Shown piece after piece: positions 1 to 29,299 of a stretch of 42,703 nt of DNA (the first letter of the stretch is position 1; every line of letters starts with the position of its first letter). The translations under genes and the position numbers were made by a program. Under the pieces are notes generated by a model. That model did no database searches, was not told the DNA's origin, and saw only the letters and a list, made by a program, of their open reading frames with translations. This DNA is from Candidatus Pacearchaeota archaeon (lineage in GTDB: Archaea; Nanobdellota; Nanobdellia; Pacearchaeales; GW2011-AR1), in contig JAGVWZ010000014.1 in the NCBI GenBank assembly GCA_018304045.1, positions 1 to 42,703 on the forward strand, given 5' to 3'.

Positions 1-528
1 TTCGCTGGTTTCATATCTATCTATTTCTGAATTTATAATCATATTATTTAACAAGTCATAACAATATGAAGCTTGTGCCATTGGAACAGGGACTGCTCCC
101 TGGTTTTCTGCAAAACCAAAATCCTCAATCAGTTCTAAAGAAAGTGGAAGCTGAAGTCTGCTTCCATCAATTGCCAGCAGTCTAAATCCATTCCATAAAT
201 CAAAAATATTATCTGTATAAAATCCTTTAATAATGCCGTCGTTTAATTCTATAAATGCTGTATGACTTAATTTCATTCTGCTTTGACAAAAAGCAGAGTT
301 AGTTATATTCTTTTCGTTAGAAAAATTTAGAAAGAACTCAGTAAGTTCTTTTTGTAAAGATTTCCTTATAGAATTTAACATAAATAAAATTATTTTTGGA
401 AAAGTTAGTTTTCTTTTTCTTGTAAAATCTTTATCAGATTTTCTATTTGATTCTAAAAATTGTTTAGAATAAATTTGATTTCTAATGTAATTAATAAATT
501 TCTTACTCTTTTTCTTCTCTCTTTTCAT
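1..528 (-). CDS. IS4-family transposase, N-terminal part (cut by window edge)
   Basis: The reading frame is open from ATG at 528 to the window edge (176 codons). The N-terminus is basic (MKREKKKSKKFINYIRN) and is followed by a helical DNA-binding-like segment. At about residues 117-127 it has LLAIDGSRLQLP, which fits the first catalytic Asp region of IS4-type DDE transposases. The remaining D and E motifs would lie outside the window, so activity cannot be judged. It is divergent from a DUF2080 gene at 579, a common companion of archaeal transposases. The family call is from the DGS..LP motif and length only. Confidence 0.75.
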   Translation of the reverse strand, partial: MKREKKKSKKFINYIRNQIYSKQFLESNRKSDKDFTRKRKLTFPKIILFMLNSIRKSLQKELTEFFLNFSNEKNITNSAFCQSRMKLSHTAFIELNDGIIKGFYTDNIFDLWNGFRLLAIDGSRLQLPLSLELIEDFGFAENQGAVPVPMAQASYCYDLLNNMIINSEIDRYETSE

Positions 529-550
529 AAAATATACACTGCCGAAAAGT

Positions 551-19827: not shown

Positions 19828-21036
19828 ATGTTACTTGAACTAATTATTGCTCTTGCCTTCGGGATAATCATAGGCACAATTACAGGCCTCCTTCCTGGAA
19901 TTCATATAAATCTTGTTTCAGTGATAATTCTCTCCCTACCTATATCAACAATAGTTTCTCCGATATATTTGGTTATATTTATAACATCCCTTTCAATAAC
20001 CCATATTTTTATAGACTTTATTCCAACAATATTTTTAGGTTGTCCAAACGAAGATACTTCTCTTTCAGTTCTTCCAGGACATGAACTTTTATTAGAAGGA
20101 AATGGCTATGAAGCAATTATTCTTTCAATCACAGGTTCTTTAATTGGAATAATACTTTTAATTCCCCTAACTATAATTTTCTTCATTTTTCTTCCAACCA
20201 CATATAATTTATTAAAAAACATAATGCCCCTAGTTTTAATATTAATTATTTTTACAATGTTCTTTTTTGAAAAAGGAAAGAAAAAAACATTATTTATAAT
20301 AATTCTATCAGGATTACTAGGAATTTCTGTTTTAACCTTAAATCTGAATATAAAAGAACCTCTTCTTCCAATGTTAACTGGCCTATTTGGTGCTTCCTCA
20401 ATAATTTTATCAATATCTAAAAAATCAAAAATACCATTTCAAGAAATAAAACTAATAAAACATATTTTAAGGGAAAATAAATCAAATTTAAAAAAACCAA
20501 TCCTAGCTTCACTAATTGCATCACCTATCTGCTCTTTTCTTCCAGGATTAGGGAGTAATCAAGCATCTACAATTGGCTCTTACATATTTGAAAATTTAAA
20601 TAAAAAACAATTTTTAATATTAATAGGAATTGTAAATTCCCTAGTAATGTCCCTGTCATTTATAATTCTTTATTCTATAAATAAATCAAGAACAGGTTCT
20701 GCAGCCTATATAACCAAACTACTTCCAAATATAAATCAAAATCAACTATTTCTAATAATTATAACAGTTCTAATAACATCTGTTATTGTTTTTCTAATAA
20801 CAATAAAAATATCAAAAGTATTTTCAAAAAACATATATAAAATAAACTACAATCTATTATCAATAATAATTATTTTATTTTTATCTTCAATAATCCTAAT
20901 CTTCTCAGGATTTATTGGATTTTTTGTTTTTCTTATCTCAACATTTACAGGAATTTCCTGCATTTTATTAAATGTAAGAAGAACCTCTTTAATGGCTTGT
21001 CTATTAATTCCTACAATAATTTATTATATCTTATAG
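19828..21036 (+). CDS. TctA-like membrane permease (DUF112/COG1784 type)
   Basis: A 402-residue protein with about ten helices. The N-terminal signature GTITGLLPGIHINLVS, the LPGHELLLEGNGYEAI loop and the second-half repeat SFLPGLGSNQASTIGSY match the TctA family, in the archaeal branch that lacks known TctB/C partners. The substrate is unknown, perhaps organic acids. A Shine-Dalgarno-like AGAGG lies just before the ATG. Its first 60 bases are echoed in the mini-ORFs at 18019 and 18755. It overlaps the purF end by 6 bp. Confidence 0.85.
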   Translation: MLLELIIALAFGIIIGTITGLLPGIHINLVSVIILSLPISTIVSPIYLVIFITSLSITHIFIDFIPTIFLGCPNEDTSLSVLPGHELLLEGNGYEAIILSITGSLIGIILLIPLTIIFFIFLPTTYNLLKNIMPLVLILIIFTMFFFEKGKKKTLFIIILSGLLGISVLTLNLNIKEPLLPMLTGLFGASSIILSISKKSKIPFQEIKLIKHILRENKSNLKKPILASLIASPICSFLPGLGSNQASTIGSYIFENLNKKQFLILIGIVNSLVMSLSFIILYSINKSRTGSAAYITKLLPNINQNQLFLIIITVLITSVIVFLITIKISKVFSKNIYKINYNLLSIIIILFLSSIILIFSGFIGFFVFLISTFTGISCILLNVRRTSLMACLLIPTIIYYIL

Positions 21037-22602
21037 ATTATCCTTTCCACCGCAAAAACACCGATCAATAAATTTATTATCTTCTTGTTTTTTTAATTCT
21101 TCAGCCCTAATTTTACCACATTTAGTTGGATATTTTCCAGTTAAACAAGCATGACATATTTCTTCCTCAGGCAACCCAATTGCATTAATCAATCCATCAA
21201 ATTTTTGATAAATAAAACTCTCTACTCCAAATTCCAAGGCGATATTTTTCTCAATATCTTCTGAGTACTTATTTGCAATTAATTCAGAATAAGTAGACAT
21301 ATCAATGCCATAAAAACAGGGAAATCTTATTGGTGGGTCTGTTATTCTAACATGAATTTCCTTTGAACCCGCATCTTTAATTAATTTTATAATTTTTTTT
21401 AAAGTTTCTCCCCTGACAATGCTATCTTCGATTAAAATAATTCTTTTACCATTAACTAAATGAGGGATAACATCATAAATCCTATTCATTAAATAATCTC
21501 TTTTATCCTTAGAATTAATAAATCCTCTTTTAGAAGAGATTTTCTTTAGAACATCTTCTGCAGTCATCCCAAAATAACTAGCAAAAGATCTTGCAGCAAG
21601 ATTGGCACTTTCAGGGGCAGGAAAAATAATAAAATCCCCTTTATTTTTAATGATCTCCTCTGCAAGAGGTTCAATTTTAGCAAGTTCCTGTCCAAATCTC
21701 CACCTTATATCCCTAACAGGAATATTTTCAAAATGAGATGCATCATTTTCAAAATAAACAGCTTCAAAATGACAATGGGCAATTTTATCATTAAACATTT
21801 TTTTTATTATAACCTCTTTATCTGAAAAAAGAATAGCACTTCCTGGTTCAACAACCTTAAAGTCATTTATTCCCACTTGCCTTAAGGCATTAGTTTCAGA
21901 AGCAATTGCATAAAAATCTTCATTTTCTCCCCAAACCAATGGTTTAAATCCCTGTGGATCCCTAACAGCACCTAAACTTCCATCACCAAGCAAAATTAGT
22001 AAACTATAAGCCCCATCCAATCTTTCCATAAAATATCTAGCTAAATCAAAAAAATCAGGTTCAAAGTTTTCTTCAGAATTAAATTGTTGAAACTTCAACC
22101 TTAATGAAATTAAATGCATTATTATCTCTGTATCAACACCTATCTCCAAATCATAGTCGTTATTTAATAAATCTTTTTCAAGCTCAGGATAATTAGCTAA
22201 ATTACCATTAAAACAAAAACAAAATCTCTTTGATCTTTTCCCATGTCTTCTTAAAAAAGGTTGTAATTGATCTATTGCATTATCCCTACTTCCGCTAGTC
22301 CCATATCTAACATGCCCAATTCCAGAAACACCCTTATAAATATCTAAAATCTGGCCCCTCTGATAGTTATCATCTCCACCAAAAAAACTATCTACATTTA
22401 ATAGTTTTTTCCTATGTAAAAAAGGTTTTCCATATTTTCCTTCATTGACCTTAAAAATCCCCATGCCAGTCCCACTCTGGCCCCTTCTTTGAATAGCAGA
22501 GAGCATTAAATCCATAGATAATGGTACAATTGAACTGTTTACATCTTTTTTTTTCAAAAAAATTCCACAAACACCACACTCTTCTTTGACTTCCATAAAC
22601 AA
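21031..22602 (-). CDS. purF: Amidophosphoribosyltransferase
   Basis: A 523-residue enzyme for the first committed step of purine synthesis (PRPP plus glutamine to phosphoribosylamine). The N-terminus MFMEVKEECGVCGIF places the catalytic Cys at C9 after a short propeptide. The glutaminase residues GHVRYGTSGS and FCFNGNLANYPEL and the PRPP loop IILIEDSIVRGETLKK are present. Cys in PCFYGIDM and CHACLTGKYPTKCG would hold the Fe-S cluster seen in some family members. The start could be 22602 or ATG 22596. It suggests partial purine synthesis in this organism. Confidence 0.93.
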   Translation of the reverse strand: MFMEVKEECGVCGIFLKKKDVNSSIVPLSMDLMLSAIQRRGQSGTGMGIFKVNEGKYGKPFLHRKKLLNVDSFFGGDDNYQRGQILDIYKGVSGIGHVRYGTSGSRDNAIDQLQPFLRRHGKRSKRFCFCFNGNLANYPELEKDLLNNDYDLEIGVDTEIIMHLISLRLKFQQFNSEENFEPDFFDLARYFMERLDGAYSLLILLGDGSLGAVRDPQGFKPLVWGENEDFYAIASETNALRQVGINDFKVVEPGSAILFSDKEVIIKKMFNDKIAHCHFEAVYFENDASHFENIPVRDIRWRFGQELAKIEPLAEEIIKNKGDFIIFPAPESANLAARSFASYFGMTAEDVLKKISSKRGFINSKDKRDYLMNRIYDVIPHLVNGKRIILIEDSIVRGETLKKIIKLIKDAGSKEIHVRITDPPIRFPCFYGIDMSTYSELIANKYSEDIEKNIALEFGVESFIYQKFDGLINAIGLPEEEICHACLTGKYPTKCGKIRAEELKKQEDNKFIDRCFCGGKDNL

Positions 22603-22720: not shown

Positions 22721-22780
22721 TAAAACCATTTACTCATATTTTCCTGCTTCTCAGTCTCCTTACCAAATATACTTTCTATA
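22721..22780 (-). repeat. 60-bp duplicate of the polC 3' end
   Basis: This segment is identical to 22825-22884, the last codons and stop of the PolD large subunit including its C-terminal PIP-box. The copies are offset by 104 bp, so this one is out of frame and beyond the stop, hence untranslated. Confidence 0.85.
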
Positions 22781-22823: not shown

Positions 22824-25800
22824 CTAAAACCATTTACTCATATTTTCCTGCTTCTCAGTCTCCTTACCAAATATACTTTCTATATATTTTTTAACAAGTT
22901 CTAAATCTTGATTAATATATGCAGGAACATCAAAATGTTTCACTAAATCTAATGCAGGCTCTAAATATTTTACAATACTTCCATAGGAAATAGTAAAAAT
23001 AAGTTTAGGATTTCCACATTTAGTGCATTTGCCGTTTAAAGGAGGTCTTCTGAATATTTCATTGCACTTACCACATCTAAAATTCTGCTGTGAAAACTTT
23101 CTTAGATTACCTTTTAAATCTTTCATAAAATGCCTGTCTATGATAAGCCTGGCAACATCTCCCTGATCAACACTTCTTAATTTAGTGCACAAATCCATTT
23201 GCCATTCAACCTTATCTTTCATTGTTGGAAGAGTTTTATAAGAAGAACAAGTACAACCCATATTAAAATCACTAGTATCATGAGTAAATCCAGTATTACA
23301 GAATGGATCTTCTCCTTTATTGATTCTTTGTTTAACCATCTCAATTTCAATCTGATTTGAATGTAATTTTTGCTCTGCTTTTTCATACAATTCTAAAGGA
23401 TAACTATTGACCAATTCAAAATCAAGTATCTGGTCATCAACTTCTTTAGCATAAACCCTTCCATTTAAAACAAGTGGAGCATCTTGAGTACCTCCTCGAT
23501 GGCTTGGTAAAAAAGTTCTTGAAAAATTTATTAAGACATCTAATAATAACATCAATGCTGCTTCATCCCCATCACATCTAAAATTAATTATCCCCTCTCC
23601 CCACAACACATTTTTATCTAATCTCTCAGTATTTATAATATCAAAACAATAAGAATAATTATCATCAGTATACTCTTTTACATCAATTATTTCATCAATA
23701 AAATAATCTCCTTTACTTTCAAAGTTTATTTCATCCATTAATTTTCTTTTGCCAAACTCTTTATCAAAAATTTGAGTTCCAACAAAATTTTTATACTTCC
23801 TCAAAATAGCTATCTTATCGCCAATATTAATTTCCTTTGCTTTTTTTATTTGAAATTTATTATTTTTATCTAAATAAAAAAAATCATGGGTAGGTGTCAT
23901 GATTTGTTCCCTCCCACTTTTAGTTATTATTTTTGTCCAATACTCTGGATTTTTTGATTTAATAAAATATTTTATTTTCTTCTTTACTAATTTATGGGTA
24001 ACTATATCTATTCCATAAGCATAAAAGTTTTTTTCATCTTTATCTAATTCTACTCTAATAGTTCCATAAGAATCAATTTGTTTTGTTTTATTTCCTCTTT
24101 TAATTAACTTTTCAATATAACTACCAATTTTAACATGATTAACCACCCCATTTTTTTCATAAATCATCCCCGTATTTGGATGGACACAATCCCTCCTCAT
24201 AGCAGCATGCATATAGGCGCTTGCAAGAAGTCCTTGTACTTTTGAAAATCCAATTATCCTACAAATAACTCCTGCACAATTATGGGGCGCCATACATACC
24301 CCCAACTGCCCAACCAAATCTTCCTTTTTTTTAATATTATAGAATTTTGGAAGCCCATAGAACTTTTCTAATAATTCATCTAAAAAATTTGAAACATTTA
24401 TAAAAACATCATCTGCTTTTTCATCACCACAAAATCCATTGCAAGGAATTATTATATCATGAGGTTTTAATTCCAATATTTGTTCTTCATTTTCCAAAAC
24501 ATTTCCAAAAATATCTTTTTCATAGCCTAGACTTCTTAATTTTTCAACACTAACTTCAATCTCCAGGGGTTTAAAATGACTTACAGGAAGTTCAGTCATA
24601 TCATATCTTACAGTACCATCTTTATTAACACAAAGATTATATTTTGCTCTTAAAACACCCTTAACTAAATTTTCAATATCATGATTTGTAGAACTAGTTC
24701 CCCTAACCCCCTTTATTTGAACAGGCATTTCATTTTTACTATAACCTAATTTTTGTTTAGCAACTTCTAAATAATTCCCAACTTCAATCCTTTGTTTTTT
24801 GTATCCTTCAGAAGAATTATGAATTTCACATTTTTTTCCTTCAATTTCCTTATTGCAAACTCTGCAAAAATACTTTCTTTTGGTTTTACTCCCACAAGAA
24901 CAAATACCATAAATACTTTCTTTATTACATTTTTCACAATAAAAAAATGGAAAACTTGAATCTACATAACCTTTTATAACTGCCTCATTAACACTTCTTA
25001 ATCTTCCACCTTCTTCTCCAACAGGAAATAAAACATTTGGACTTCCAATTAATTTTCTCAATTTTGCTTTTTCAGGCCTACCCATTCTACTTCCAATAAA
25101 TTCTCCTGCCTTATCCCTAATCTTAAATTTACTTAGTTTATTTATAATTCCAAGAACAAAATTTCCCTCTGACTTTGCTCTTAATTCTTTATCATCAATA
25201 GTCTGAAATACTAGATCTAATTTCTTAAAATCAAAATTTAAATTCAATTCTCCTTCATGTTTAGAATCAAAACCAAGATTAATTAACAGGGCCTTGGTAT
25301 CAATTTCATTTAAAATAACGTTTTCAACACCTATCTCATGTTCAATTCCGAGCAATTCCAATGTTCTTTTTCCAATCTTAAATCTTTCTTTTTCATGAGA
25401 ATTATATGGAAATAATAACTTACCCACATTAACCCTTGAATGATTCAACCAATCAATAAACCCTAAAAAGTGTTCATAATTAATTTGGGTCCAGTAATAA
25501 ATATATTTTGGACTAAGTGCAACTCCAAAAATTCTTGAAAGTTCTTTTGCATCTTCAAAACTAACTTCATATGAATTTTTTACTTTTCCACCTAATTTTT
25601 CTAATTCAAGATTCCACCATTCTTCAACATAAGCACTTTTTATTAAAGTAGCATTTCTGTTCATAACATCTCCCAGGGGAAATAATATATCCCCAATATA
25701 GATTATTTCTTCAACATCCTTATACAATTCTTTAGCTTCTTCATAGGTTTTTAATTTTTTAACACTTCCATTTTTTAATTTAACAATAGGTCCTTCAATA

Positions 25801-26933
25801 ACATCACAAGGGGTTACAACACAACCTTTTGTTGGTTTTTCTATTTTCAATTGTGTTCCTGTTGCAATAAAATCATTTGTAATTCCCATTGTAGCAGGAT
25901 GAACACTTACTGCAGAAAATCCAGCAACCCTGCTTCTTCCATATCTAAATCTAAATCCTTTTCCAGGATGTCCAAATACAGGCCGTCCTGCAACTAAGTC
26001 TTTAATATAAGTCGGGCTTGTATCTGCTTTTCCAGCTGTTCTTTTTTCATGCATATGAACATATTCATCCAACCATTCCCAATCCTTAATTTGAAATCCA
26101 TTCTTCTGAACTTTTTTTAAAAGTCTGAGCCCTTTTGCTGCTTTTTGAGCCATTCCTTCACCAAGTATTAAACAAAGGCCCCCACGAATAAAATTAGTAT
26201 CTATTCTTGGCAAATCTTTAAAATTACTCACTTCTCTTTTTTCAGTAGGATCGCCATCAACTTGTATTGGCATATTTTTGGCAATAAAATATGCTTCTTC
26301 TTCTGTTGGAAGATATTGTAAATTTGTGACTCTTTCATGATAATCATTAAGCTCCATTACAATTCTTTTGCATTCTTGCTCAGTTGGATCAAATTTTTCA
26401 TAGCCAAAAACCTGCCGTATATAATCAATAACCATTAATACCATACAACTAGCAGTTGTTCCAGCACTTCTTATAGGTCCTGAAAAATAAGCTTTTAAAT
26501 ATTTTTTACCATCTTGTCTAAATCCTTCTTTTATTTCAGTAAATCCTTCAATAGGAGAACTCACAACTCCAAGAGTAAGATAAGAAAATGCAACCCTTAT
26601 TCCAGCATCCATTGCCTGCATTTTATTTTCAAACTTGCAATATTTTTCTGATGCAATCTCCTCTGCAATTTTAAAACTAACAGAACATTCCAATGCACCG
26701 TATTGTTTTTCCAATTCTAATAATCTTTCAATAACATCTTCCCTATCAAGTTGAGGGTAAACAGTAGAAATAAGTCTAACGACTTTTGCAGCCATTGTCA
26801 TTGCCAATGGAACCTCTACTTTATCAACAGGATCTAATCCTCTAGCCCTTGCTTTTCCAGCCACATCATAATTTCTTTTAATCTCATTACTTAATTCTTC
26901 AAAATACTTTTCAGTTTGAGGTTTAAATCCCAT
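22824..26933 (-). CDS. polC: Family-D DNA polymerase large (catalytic) subunit DP2, with mini-intein
   Basis: The frame encodes 1369 residues, or 1165 without the intein (residues 916-1119). The start MGFKPQTEKYFEELSNEIKRNYDVAGKARARG is typical of DP2. Zinc-finger Cys sets appear at YCEKCNKESIYGICSCG, YFCRVCNKEIEGKKC and near the C-terminus (RCGKCNEIFRRPPLNGKCTKCG). The catalytic DGDE (1121-1124) directly follows the intein. The protein ends QENMSKWF, a C-terminal PIP-box for PCNA. An AGGGGGTG Shine-Dalgarno precedes the start, inside the upstream gene, which overlaps by 43 bp. Confidence 0.95.
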   Translation of the reverse strand: MGFKPQTEKYFEELSNEIKRNYDVAGKARARGLDPVDKVEVPLAMTMAAKVVRLISTVYPQLDREDVIERLLELEKQYGALECSVSFKIAEEIASEKYCKFENKMQAMDAGIRVAFSYLTLGVVSSPIEGFTEIKEGFRQDGKKYLKAYFSGPIRSAGTTASCMVLMVIDYIRQVFGYEKFDPTEQECKRIVMELNDYHERVTNLQYLPTEEEAYFIAKNMPIQVDGDPTEKREVSNFKDLPRIDTNFIRGGLCLILGEGMAQKAAKGLRLLKKVQKNGFQIKDWEWLDEYVHMHEKRTAGKADTSPTYIKDLVAGRPVFGHPGKGFRFRYGRSRVAGFSAVSVHPATMGITNDFIATGTQLKIEKPTKGCVVTPCDVIEGPIVKLKNGSVKKLKTYEEAKELYKDVEEIIYIGDILFPLGDVMNRNATLIKSAYVEEWWNLELEKLGGKVKNSYEVSFEDAKELSRIFGVALSPKYIYYWTQINYEHFLGFIDWLNHSRVNVGKLLFPYNSHEKERFKIGKRTLELLGIEHEIGVENVILNEIDTKALLINLGFDSKHEGELNLNFDFKKLDLVFQTIDDKELRAKSEGNFVLGIINKLSKFKIRDKAGEFIGSRMGRPEKAKLRKLIGSPNVLFPVGEEGGRLRSVNEAVIKGYVDSSFPFFYCEKCNKESIYGICSCGSKTKRKYFCRVCNKEIEGKKCEIHNSSEGYKKQRIEVGNYLEVAKQKLGYSKNEMPVQIKGVRGTSSTNHDIENLVKGVLRAKYNLCVNKDGTVRYDMTELPVSHFKPLEIEVSVEKLRSLGYEKDIFGNVLENEEQILELKPHDIIIPCNGFCGDEKADDVFINVSNFLDELLEKFYGLPKFYNIKKKEDLVGQLGVCMAPHNCAGVICRIIGFSKVQGLLASAYMHAAMRRDCVHPNTGMIYEKNGVVNHVKIGSYIEKLIKRGNKTKQIDSYGTIRVELDKDEKNFYAYGIDIVTHKLVKKKIKYFIKSKNPEYWTKIITKSGREQIMTPTHDFFYLDKNNKFQIKKAKEINIGDKIAILRKYKNFVGTQIFDKEFGKRKLMDEINFESKGDYFIDEIIDVKEYTDDNYSYCFDIINTERLDKNVLWGEGIINFRCDGDEAALMLLLDVLINFSRTFLPSHRGGTQDAPLVLNGRVYAKEVDDQILDFELVNSYPLELYEKAEQKLHSNQIEIEMVKQRINKGEDPFCNTGFTHDTSDFNMGCTCSSYKTLPTMKDKVEWQMDLCTKLRSVDQGDVARLIIDRHFMKDLKGNLRKFSQQNFRCGKCNEIFRRPPLNGKCTKCGNPKLIFTISYGSIVKYLEPALDLVKHFDVPAYINQDLELVKKYIESIFGKETEKQENMSKWF
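23577..24188 (-). other. Mini-intein in PolC, 204 residues, non-canonical C-terminus
   Basis: The intein begins with Cys (RRD/CVHPNTGMIYEKNG, block A), has the block B motif GREQIMTPTHDFF (TxxH), and a block F-like CFDIINTERLDKNVLWGEG. There is no LAGLIDADG or other homing endonuclease. The insertion point, just before CDGDE, is the known PolC intein site. The expected terminal His-Asn is missing: the junction reads GIINFR/CDGDE. If splicing occurs it cannot use ordinary terminal Asn cyclisation at that position. Confidence 0.88.
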
Positions 26934-27566: not shown

Positions 27567-29213
27567 TCATTTTTTTACCTCACAAACAATTTCTTTTTTA
27601 TTTAAATCAAAATTTTCTCCATTCTTTACCTCAATACATTCTTTTTCAATAGGCTCGTCTGTAAAATCAAGTATTTTTAATGCACCTGTTTTCAAATTTA
27701 ACATAGGAACTTTGCATGGATCAGGAAGATTTCCAACTTTTTCTTCAAAAGGAGTAATAGATTGCCAACAACTTCCTGCAATTAATAATATGCCATTATA
27801 CTTATCAATATCAGTTCTATGTAAATCTCCTGTTGCAACAATATCAGGAACTTCCTTAATAAGCATAGGATCTTCATCTGCATTTGGAATATATACCATT
27901 GAACCATGTATTGGTGCAAGATGTCTTCTAAGCAACAGATGTTTAACTGCTTTAGTAGGATTTCTATGTGCATTGATTAATCTCAATTCTTCAATTTCAT
28001 TGATTATTGGATGCATACTTGCACCATGATACATTAACACCCTAATTCCTTGTTTTTCAACCTTCCCTTCAATTTCAATAATACTAGGATTACTAACCAA
28101 ATATAAATTAGAAATTTTATGTAAAGGCTCTCCAAAATCAATCCCAATTGGAGGCTGCGGTTCAGCAACCCTAACACCATCATGCTGTCCAGGACACATT
28201 ATAATATTAATGTGTTTTGGAATCTTATTTAAATATTCAGCTAATTTTTCATATTGTAATTTCATATCTTTTATAATAAGAAATTTTTCCTGCCCTGGAT
28301 AAATTCCAACCCCATCAATATTATCTCCAACAATAAAAATATATTTTATTTTTTTAATTAATTCCTTCTGTTCATCATAACAATCTTTACAATTCAGCCA
28401 ATCAATAAATTTCTCAAAATTATTTTGTAAAAACATACTGCTTCCAACATGGATGTCTGAAATAAACAAAGCATAAGTCTCTTCCTCACTTCTACATCTC
28501 GCCCTAATATGGGCATCAGGATAAAATAAATCATTAACAAATAAAAAATCTTTATTTCCACTACATTTAAAACCAACTACATCATCTAATAATATTTCTT
28601 TAGCTTTTTGAAAAACTTCTTCTCTATTCTGATTTATTAATAATTTAACTCTATCTGTTAAATCTTCTACTTCTAAAATTATATTTTTATTTTTAGTAAC
28701 TGTTTTTGAACTAACAATACCAATTATAGAAACAACCCTATTTCCCCCTTTGATTTTGTCAATTGAAGTTAAATTTTCCAGTTCCTGCCTTTGTTGTAAT
28801 AACCCTTTAATAAAATTATATCTACTTCTAAAATGTCTGACAAAATCTTTTACAGTTAATTTTTGAGAGGTAAGTATTGGTGAAGAAATTATCTTGATTG
28901 GCGCTCTTTTTATATCTTTTTTGTCTTCAATAACAATCTCTTTTTTTACTTCAACTGAAATAGAAACATTGACAAAAAATTTCTCAACCAACTTCTTCTT
29001 GTCATTATCTAAGTCAAATAGAACTGGTTTTAATTTATCAAAATTTTCACTGACAAGATGTTTAGTTATAACCTTTTTTTTAGCAACCAGTGCAATTTTA
29101 TCTATAATCTCCTTAGCAATTGTTTCATTTTCCAATTCATTGAAGAAATCTAGCATTTCTCTGTCTAATAAAAAACCTTTTTCAATAAATAGTTTTAATA
29201 TATTTTCTCCCAT
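27567..29213 (-). CDS. polB: Family-D DNA polymerase small (exonuclease) subunit DP1
   Basis: The frame opens with TTG at 29228; ATG 29213 (MGENILKLFIEKGF, 548 residues) is preferred. It has an N-terminal helical domain, an OB-fold (about 155-215) and a calcineurin-like phosphoesterase domain with FISDIHVGS, VGDNIDGVG, CPGQHDGVR, MYHGAS and TGDLHRTD, the metal ligands of the 3'-5' exonuclease. It partners with PolC. It is followed by the nucleotidase and polC, all on the same strand downstream of orc1/cdc6. Confidence 0.94.
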   Translation of the reverse strand: MGENILKLFIEKGFLLDREMLDFFNELENETIAKEIIDKIALVAKKKVITKHLVSENFDKLKPVLFDLDNDKKKLVEKFFVNVSISVEVKKEIVIEDKKDIKRAPIKIISSPILTSQKLTVKDFVRHFRSRYNFIKGLLQQRQELENLTSIDKIKGGNRVVSIIGIVSSKTVTKNKNIILEVEDLTDRVKLLINQNREEVFQKAKEILLDDVVGFKCSGNKDFLFVNDLFYPDAHIRARCRSEEETYALFISDIHVGSSMFLQNNFEKFIDWLNCKDCYDEQKELIKKIKYIFIVGDNIDGVGIYPGQEKFLIIKDMKLQYEKLAEYLNKIPKHINIIMCPGQHDGVRVAEPQPPIGIDFGEPLHKISNLYLVSNPSIIEIEGKVEKQGIRVLMYHGASMHPIINEIEELRLINAHRNPTKAVKHLLLRRHLAPIHGSMVYIPNADEDPMLIKEVPDIVATGDLHRTDIDKYNGILLIAGSCWQSITPFEEKVGNLPDPCKVPMLNLKTGALKILDFTDEPIEKECIEVKNGENFDLNKKEIVCEVKK

Positions 29214-29299
29214 CTTATTTTTTACCAATCTTATGTTTGTGTTATTTCAAAATATTGCACCAAGGGTTTAATAATTAATCTATACTAAAAAATATTAGT

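Follow-up and report, generated by a model that had tools for sequence, protein, structure and literature searches.

The stretch analysed here, called the window below, comprises 42,703 nucleotides from a Candidatus Pacearchaeota archaeon (positions 1 to 42,703 of contig JAGVWZ010000014.1, assembly GCA_018304045.1). Its minus strand carries polC, the gene for DP2, the large subunit of DNA polymerase D (PolD), interrupted in frame by a mini-intein that ends in arginine (Table 1). An earlier note on this DNA had described a PolC intein of 204 residues with Cys1 and a TxxH motif, placed directly before CDGDE and ending GIINFR/C (the slash marks the junction), and the open reading frame (ORF), the family matches (among them a Pfam Intein_splicing match above the cut-off) and relatives without an intein all confirm this description. 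The intein-less relatives read HAAMRRD/CDGDE and the insert lies in frame at exactly that junction, so that the borders are exact, with MRRD followed by Cys1 and Arg204 followed by CDGDE; the codons at the 3' junction are AAT TTT AGA / TGT (N-F-R/C). In P. abyssi DP2, D956 and D958 belong to a catalytic loop that also holds the intein site (PMC4996933, excerpt). The genome of the window, about 86% complete, has a single PolC gene plus one 3' fragment. The terminal Arg is kept in all 25 related inteins that we found, which suggests an undescribed way to finish protein splicing.

Table 1. The polC gene of the window, its intein and the residues discussed in the text.
Feature	Position in the window	Strand	Support
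polC, coding for the DP2 large subunit of DNA polymerase D and interrupted in frame by the intein	22824..26933	minus	ORF of 1369 aa; Pfam PolC_DP2 and Intein_splicing, TIGR01445 intein_Nterm
N-extein, ending ...HAAMRRD	24189..26933	minus	Agrees with intein-less relatives
Arg-terminated mini-intein, 204 aa, without endonuclease domain	23577..24188	minus	Pfam, TIGR01445, intein-less relatives, AlphaFold model, Hint-fold matches
Cys1, N-terminal nucleophile	24186..24188	minus	Invariant in 24/24 Arg-type and 29/29 Asn/Gln-type inteins
Block B T98-x-x-H101	23886..23897	minus	T and H invariant in Arg-type and Asn/Gln-type groups
Block F Cys181 (F:4 position)	23646..23648	minus	Invariant in both groups; role of F:4 as in PMC4031507 (excerpt)
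Asn193 at the block-F His position (F:13)	23610..23612	minus	N/S/T in 24/24 Arg-type; His in 26/29 Asn/Gln-type
Asn202 (position -3)	23583..23585	minus	Arg clade: Asn in 23, Gln in 1 of 24
Arg204, terminal intein residue, codon AGA	23577..23579	minus	Arg in 25/25 of the clade
Cys+1, C-extein nucleophile	23574..23576	minus	CDGDE after the intein in 21/21 Arg-type hosts tallied
Asp-Gly-Asp, DP2 catalytic loop	23565..23573	minus	Sequence; P. abyssi DP2 D956/D958 (PMC4996933, excerpt)
C-extein, CDGDE to stop codon	22824..23576	minus	77-86% identity to the C-exteins of nine intein-less same-genus relatives listed

The search for relatives covered 89 relatives, 200 genomes of the order, 378 of the class and 371 of the phylum (overlapping sets), together with a scan of named genomes, and the intein matches were ranked by similarity over the whole intein, not by terminal residue. 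Arg-terminated (Arg-type) inteins at the PolC site come from 25 distinct genomes in 12 families of the class, plus the unplaced L045, a partial PolC without family assignment; 24 are complete, and that of G402 lies at a contig end, with its N-terminal part missing. Class-level matches were examined in part (G354, G459, G416, G364, G404 and G448, among others, were left out), so that the counts of Arg-, Gln- and Asn-type inteins are lower bounds, and G388 and G210 gave no junction. In the 24 complete inteins the terminal Arg is encoded by AGA (10), AGG (5), CGA (5), CGT (3) and CGG (1), and on the tree of these inteins the codon at this position changes 12 times without any change of the amino acid, as against 14 codon and 8 residue changes at position -2. 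The earlier note had presented the missing terminal residue as a one-off loss, and had named two findings that would count against its claim, a read error at 23574-23585 and His-Asn (HN) at this junction in close relatives. What this comparison shows instead is an Arg conserved across the clade: it recurs with five codons in independent assemblies, which rules out a read error for the clade, and HN is found nowhere in the Arg clade. Asn ends, some of them HN, occur at this site only in a separate intein clade of the same class, in which 20 of the 29 complete members have Gln as last residue and 9 have Asn. Throughout the Arg clade, Arg is a conserved replacement of the usual last residue; a read error and a recent mutation are both rejected.

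Among full inteins, the 12 pairs of highest similarity have a pairwise nonsynonymous divergence (dN) of 0.23-0.32, against a synonymous divergence (dS) of 0.80-4.05. Full length is the rule (21 of the 24 complete members), and a simple pattern recovers LAGLIDADG motif 1 in 20 of these 21 and motif 2 in 18, while the window copy and two other mini-inteins (204, 191 and 169 aa) lack the LAGLIDADG endonuclease and persist without it. At least two events of endonuclease loss are needed in the Arg clade, including that of the window copy; the other two mini-inteins (L107:1819-2391, 191 aa, from G371, and L108:2931-3437, 169 aa, from G314) come from a family other than the window's. The Asn-type intein of G017 is a mini-intein as well.

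Both alignment and structure bear on the question of where the intein ends. Over its final 14 residues the alignment has no gaps, with DKNVLWGEGIINFR set against, for example, ENHLVVANNIITKN. An AlphaFold model of the window intein with 8-residue flanks, in which model residues 9..212 correspond to C1..R204, has a mean predicted local distance difference test score (pLDDT) of 86.8, and the 50 listed structural matches are all inteins or other Hint domains with Z of about 13-22, as expected for a Hint fold. C1..R204 aligns to 1..537 of 2cw7 (Z 21.8, rmsd, the root-mean-square deviation, 2.5, 192 residues aligned), to 1..454 of 1dq3 (Z 19.9, rmsd 2.6, 194 aligned) and to 1..185 of the Pab PolII intein 2lcj (Z 17.9, rmsd 2.5, 171 aligned), where the ranges denote first and last residues only. 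The ungapped alignment and the end-to-end match of the model place Arg204 in the Asn/Gln position, and both disfavour a different register in which Asn202 would be the true end of the intein.

The Asn/Gln-type inteins share with the Arg type the insertion site, Cys1, TxxH, the block-F Cys and the LAGLIDADG architecture, but they form a clade of their own. A branch with 100/100 support has the Arg group on one side, both in a tree of whole inteins (21 Arg-type rows) and in a tree of the trimmed splicing domain (24 Arg-type rows), from which the endonuclease region and the last residue were left out; G004 (Gln), G005 (Asn) and G231 (Gln), whose ends were seen, are absent from the trees. Cys1, T98, H101 and Cys181 are invariant across all 24 Arg-type and 29 Asn/Gln-type inteins, whereas the block-F His, present in 26 of the 29, has given way to N, S or T in every one of the 24. 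Position 78 (window 23955-23957) is His in all 29 Asn/Gln-type inteins, Gly in 23 of the 24 Arg-type ones and Ser in the window, and His78 may be a partner in Asn/Gln cyclisation that has gone unrecognised. In the Arg group alone, K70, W84, G197 and R204 are invariant, with W196 and N202 close to it; the W84/W196-G197/N202 signature is missing from the Asn/Gln group. The residues for steps 1 and 2 are thus kept in both groups, while the set for final cleavage has been exchanged as a package. The earlier note also counted the missing His of the terminal His-Asn as an anomaly, which does not hold at this site: the penultimate His is absent from 24/24 Arg-type and 26/29 Asn/Gln-type inteins and present in just 3/29. 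The unusual features of the window intein are the terminal Arg and the lost block-F His, not the missing penultimate His. As a separate observation, the Arg-type intein of G045 (L018:385-1905) starts with CFDYNT, as in the Gln/Asn clade, and not with CVxPxT; recombination between the two intein types at its N-terminal end is possible.

Although the Arg-type inteins are one clade themselves, they are scattered across hosts as if at random: when the Arg label is mapped on a tree of the host PolC exteins, 21 changes are needed, compared with a mean of 20.2 for shuffled labels. Closely related hosts can carry different types, as in the pairs G131 (Arg) with G128 (Asn), G371 (Arg) with G086 (Gln), G009 (Arg) with G017 (Asn) and G266 (Arg) with G223 (Gln), and this, together with the random-like scatter, suggests that the Arg type invades naive hosts that otherwise have Asn, Gln or no intein. 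The junction xRR[D/N]/CDGDE is unchanged in all 21 Arg-type hosts tallied, with flanks as in Gln, Asn and intein-less hosts. No second intact PolC was found in any of the 23 Arg hosts searched (PolC is split over contigs in G402 and G418, and L045 and G557 lay outside this search), and no relatives were found in viral contigs. Such a spread is hardly to be expected of a non-splicing insert that sits two residues from a catalytic Asp of a replicase encoded by a single gene. Other inteins of Arg hosts end in HN, namely helicase, ATPase and topoisomerase inteins in G036, G045, G040 and G131 (gene names of these other intein hosts, here and below, were assigned by eye), and these ends, together with the five Arg codons, rule out recoding or RNA editing of one codon. 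In the window's own genome, MCM and PHP-type phosphoesterase-like genes (L113, L114) likewise have inteins ending in canonical HN.

The best explanation for these observations is that the window intein belongs to an old clade of PolC inteins that moves horizontally and in which a functionally required Arg has taken the place of the terminal Asn/Gln. On balance, the clade probably splices, by a final cleavage that would depend on Arg and be independent of Asn or Gln. In the first step, Cys1 would form the N-terminal thioester, for which Cys1, T98 and H101 are retained; in the second, the N-extein would pass to Cys+1 to give the branched intermediate, with Cys181 and Cys+1 retained; in the third, an Arg-dependent route replacing Asn/Gln cyclisation would cleave the bond between Arg204 and Cys+1, and the exteins would be rejoined as MRRD-CDGDE. 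The chemistry that we prefer for the third step is a tentative one. N-epsilon of the Arg side chain might attack the residue's own carbonyl, so that the extein is set free and the intein is left with a six-membered arginine delta-lactam at its end. N-epsilon is carried on C-delta in Gln as in Arg, and a ring of six members results in either case when it attacks the residue's own carbonyl. Most inteins of the sister group end in Gln, which a single base change (CAA to CGA) turns into Arg, and Arg delta-lactam is a known by-product when Arg is activated in peptide synthesis. Assisted cleavage, or an N-to-S shift at Cys+1 followed by hydrolysis, are conceivable alternatives for this step.

Several points speak against this model or parts of it. 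The guanidinium group, with a pKa of about 13.8, is a poor nucleophile, and since the block-F His is replaced by N, S or T, the lactam route would need some other base. The near-invariant Asn/Gln at position -3, the only cyclisable residue near the end, may itself act, and conservation of the Arg could serve recognition and not chemistry. Moreover, the genomes with Arg-type inteins are draft assemblies of uncultivated archaea.

The earlier note had reasoned that, PolD being essential, splicing must use another route, or else the unspliced or cleaved form works as in split polymerases. The first half is well supported, if indirectly, by the Arg in 25/25, the single PolC, the unchanged junctions and the horizontal mobility, with splicing itself as a prediction. 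The second half is unlikely, given the random distribution and flanks that do not differ between hosts of the Arg, Gln and Asn types and hosts without an intein. It corresponds to a reading without final cleavage, in which the intein carries out only thioester formation or N-terminal cleavage, or is retained, and PolD works nicked, branched or unspliced. This would fit the absence of F:13 His, G:6 His and G:7 Asn, all usually credited with Asn cyclisation, next to intact residues for steps 1 and 2, and Asp at position -1, which favours N-terminal cleavage, is common in these hosts. However, it would leave an insert two residues before the catalytic Asp of the DP2 loop (PMC4996933, excerpt) in hosts whose unchanged flanks give no sign of adaptation; conservation of the Arg would not be needed, and the random-like host spread is hardly possible for an inactivating insert in a single-copy gene.

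Somewhat less probable still is a host protease that cuts after Arg204, whereupon the freed Cys+1 attacks the intein thioester in a native chemical ligation, a chemistry established in expressed protein ligation; splicing would then need a trans-acting factor. Arg at P1, a variable P2 and Asn at P3 do resemble a protease site, but the random host spread would require a universal protease. Arg-specific C11 peptidases do not fill this role, as only one of 23 Arg hosts has them, and one of 21 other hosts (the search was for C11 only, with C14 and trypsin-like families outside it).

The amide at position -3 could also cyclise in place of the Arg, joining the exteins with an x-Arg scar left in PolC. 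An amide is indeed found there in all 24 complete Arg-type inteins (Asn in 23, Gln in 1), but we regard this as improbable: the residue that follows (T, F, A, L, M or I) is not a nucleophile in half of the cases, the scar would put two extra residues directly before CDGDE, where the empty allele has none, and structure and alignment put Arg, not Asn202, at the terminal position. Finally, a sequencing error, degenerate intein or pseudogene, to which the tandem duplication at the polC 3' end of the window assembly and the incompleteness of the genome might point, is next to negligible in view of the Arg in 25/25 from separate assemblies with five codons, the low dN relative to dS and the conserved C-extein.

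How does an Arg-dependent intein compare with known systems? Class 3 inteins lack Cys, Ser or Thr at position 1 and use an internal WCT nucleophile, while Cys1 is invariant in the Arg-type inteins. They have Cys1 and TxxH in 24/24 and Cys at +1 in 21/21, as in class 1, but end in Arg in 25/25 and not in the Asn, Gln, Asp or Glu of that class; we therefore file the window intein as an intein that is a standard member of neither class. Bacterial intein-like (BIL) domains are likewise Hint domains with non-standard chemistry on the C-terminal side, but they are not known as mobile inserts in essential enzymes, and the Arg clade is intein-like in its insertion site, Cys+1 and homing endonuclease. 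BIL domains often lack a C-flanking nucleophile (PMC5874633, excerpt), whereas the window intein has Cys+1. The P. abyssi (Pab) and P. horikoshii (Pho) PolII inteins occupy the same host protein and the same site before CDGDE, have the Hint fold and an atypical, non-Asn end, and splice in vitro, Pab slowly (excerpts of PMC4031507, PMC8175363 and PMC8229266); their terminal Gln is able to cyclise, while the window intein ends in Arg and is without the block-F His. Gln-, Asp- or Glu-ended inteins such as that of CIV RNR combine an atypical last residue with a class 1 start, as the window intein does, but their last residue is cyclisable as an amide or acid; the excerpt of PMC4031507 that treats them names four residues for this position, Asn, Gln, Asp and Glu, and Arg is not one of them. 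No description of Arg-terminated inteins was found in the literature searched (open-access papers, with InBase outside the search).

By the prevailing rule, an intein needs Asn, Gln, Asp or Glu for its release; a conserved, mobile clade with Arg, in a gene that encodes a replicase and has one copy, implies that the rule does not cover every case. If the lactam forms, step 3 would have a new residue chemistry, and a new intein class might be called for; if there is no splicing, a replicative polymerase that works with a broken or filled active-site loop would be equally surprising. The three Arg mini-inteins are small test proteins, and biotechnology could gain an intein with a last step that can be separated from Asn chemistry.

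Close to the polC 3' end, an exact 60-nt tandem duplication (22721-22780 and 22825-22884, spacing 104) repeats the last codons just past the stop codon, and is either a genuine duplication or an assembly artefact. Also on the minus strand, the gene at 27567-29228 resembles, by eye, DP1, the small subunit of PolD, and that at 21031-22602 an amidophosphoribosyltransferase.
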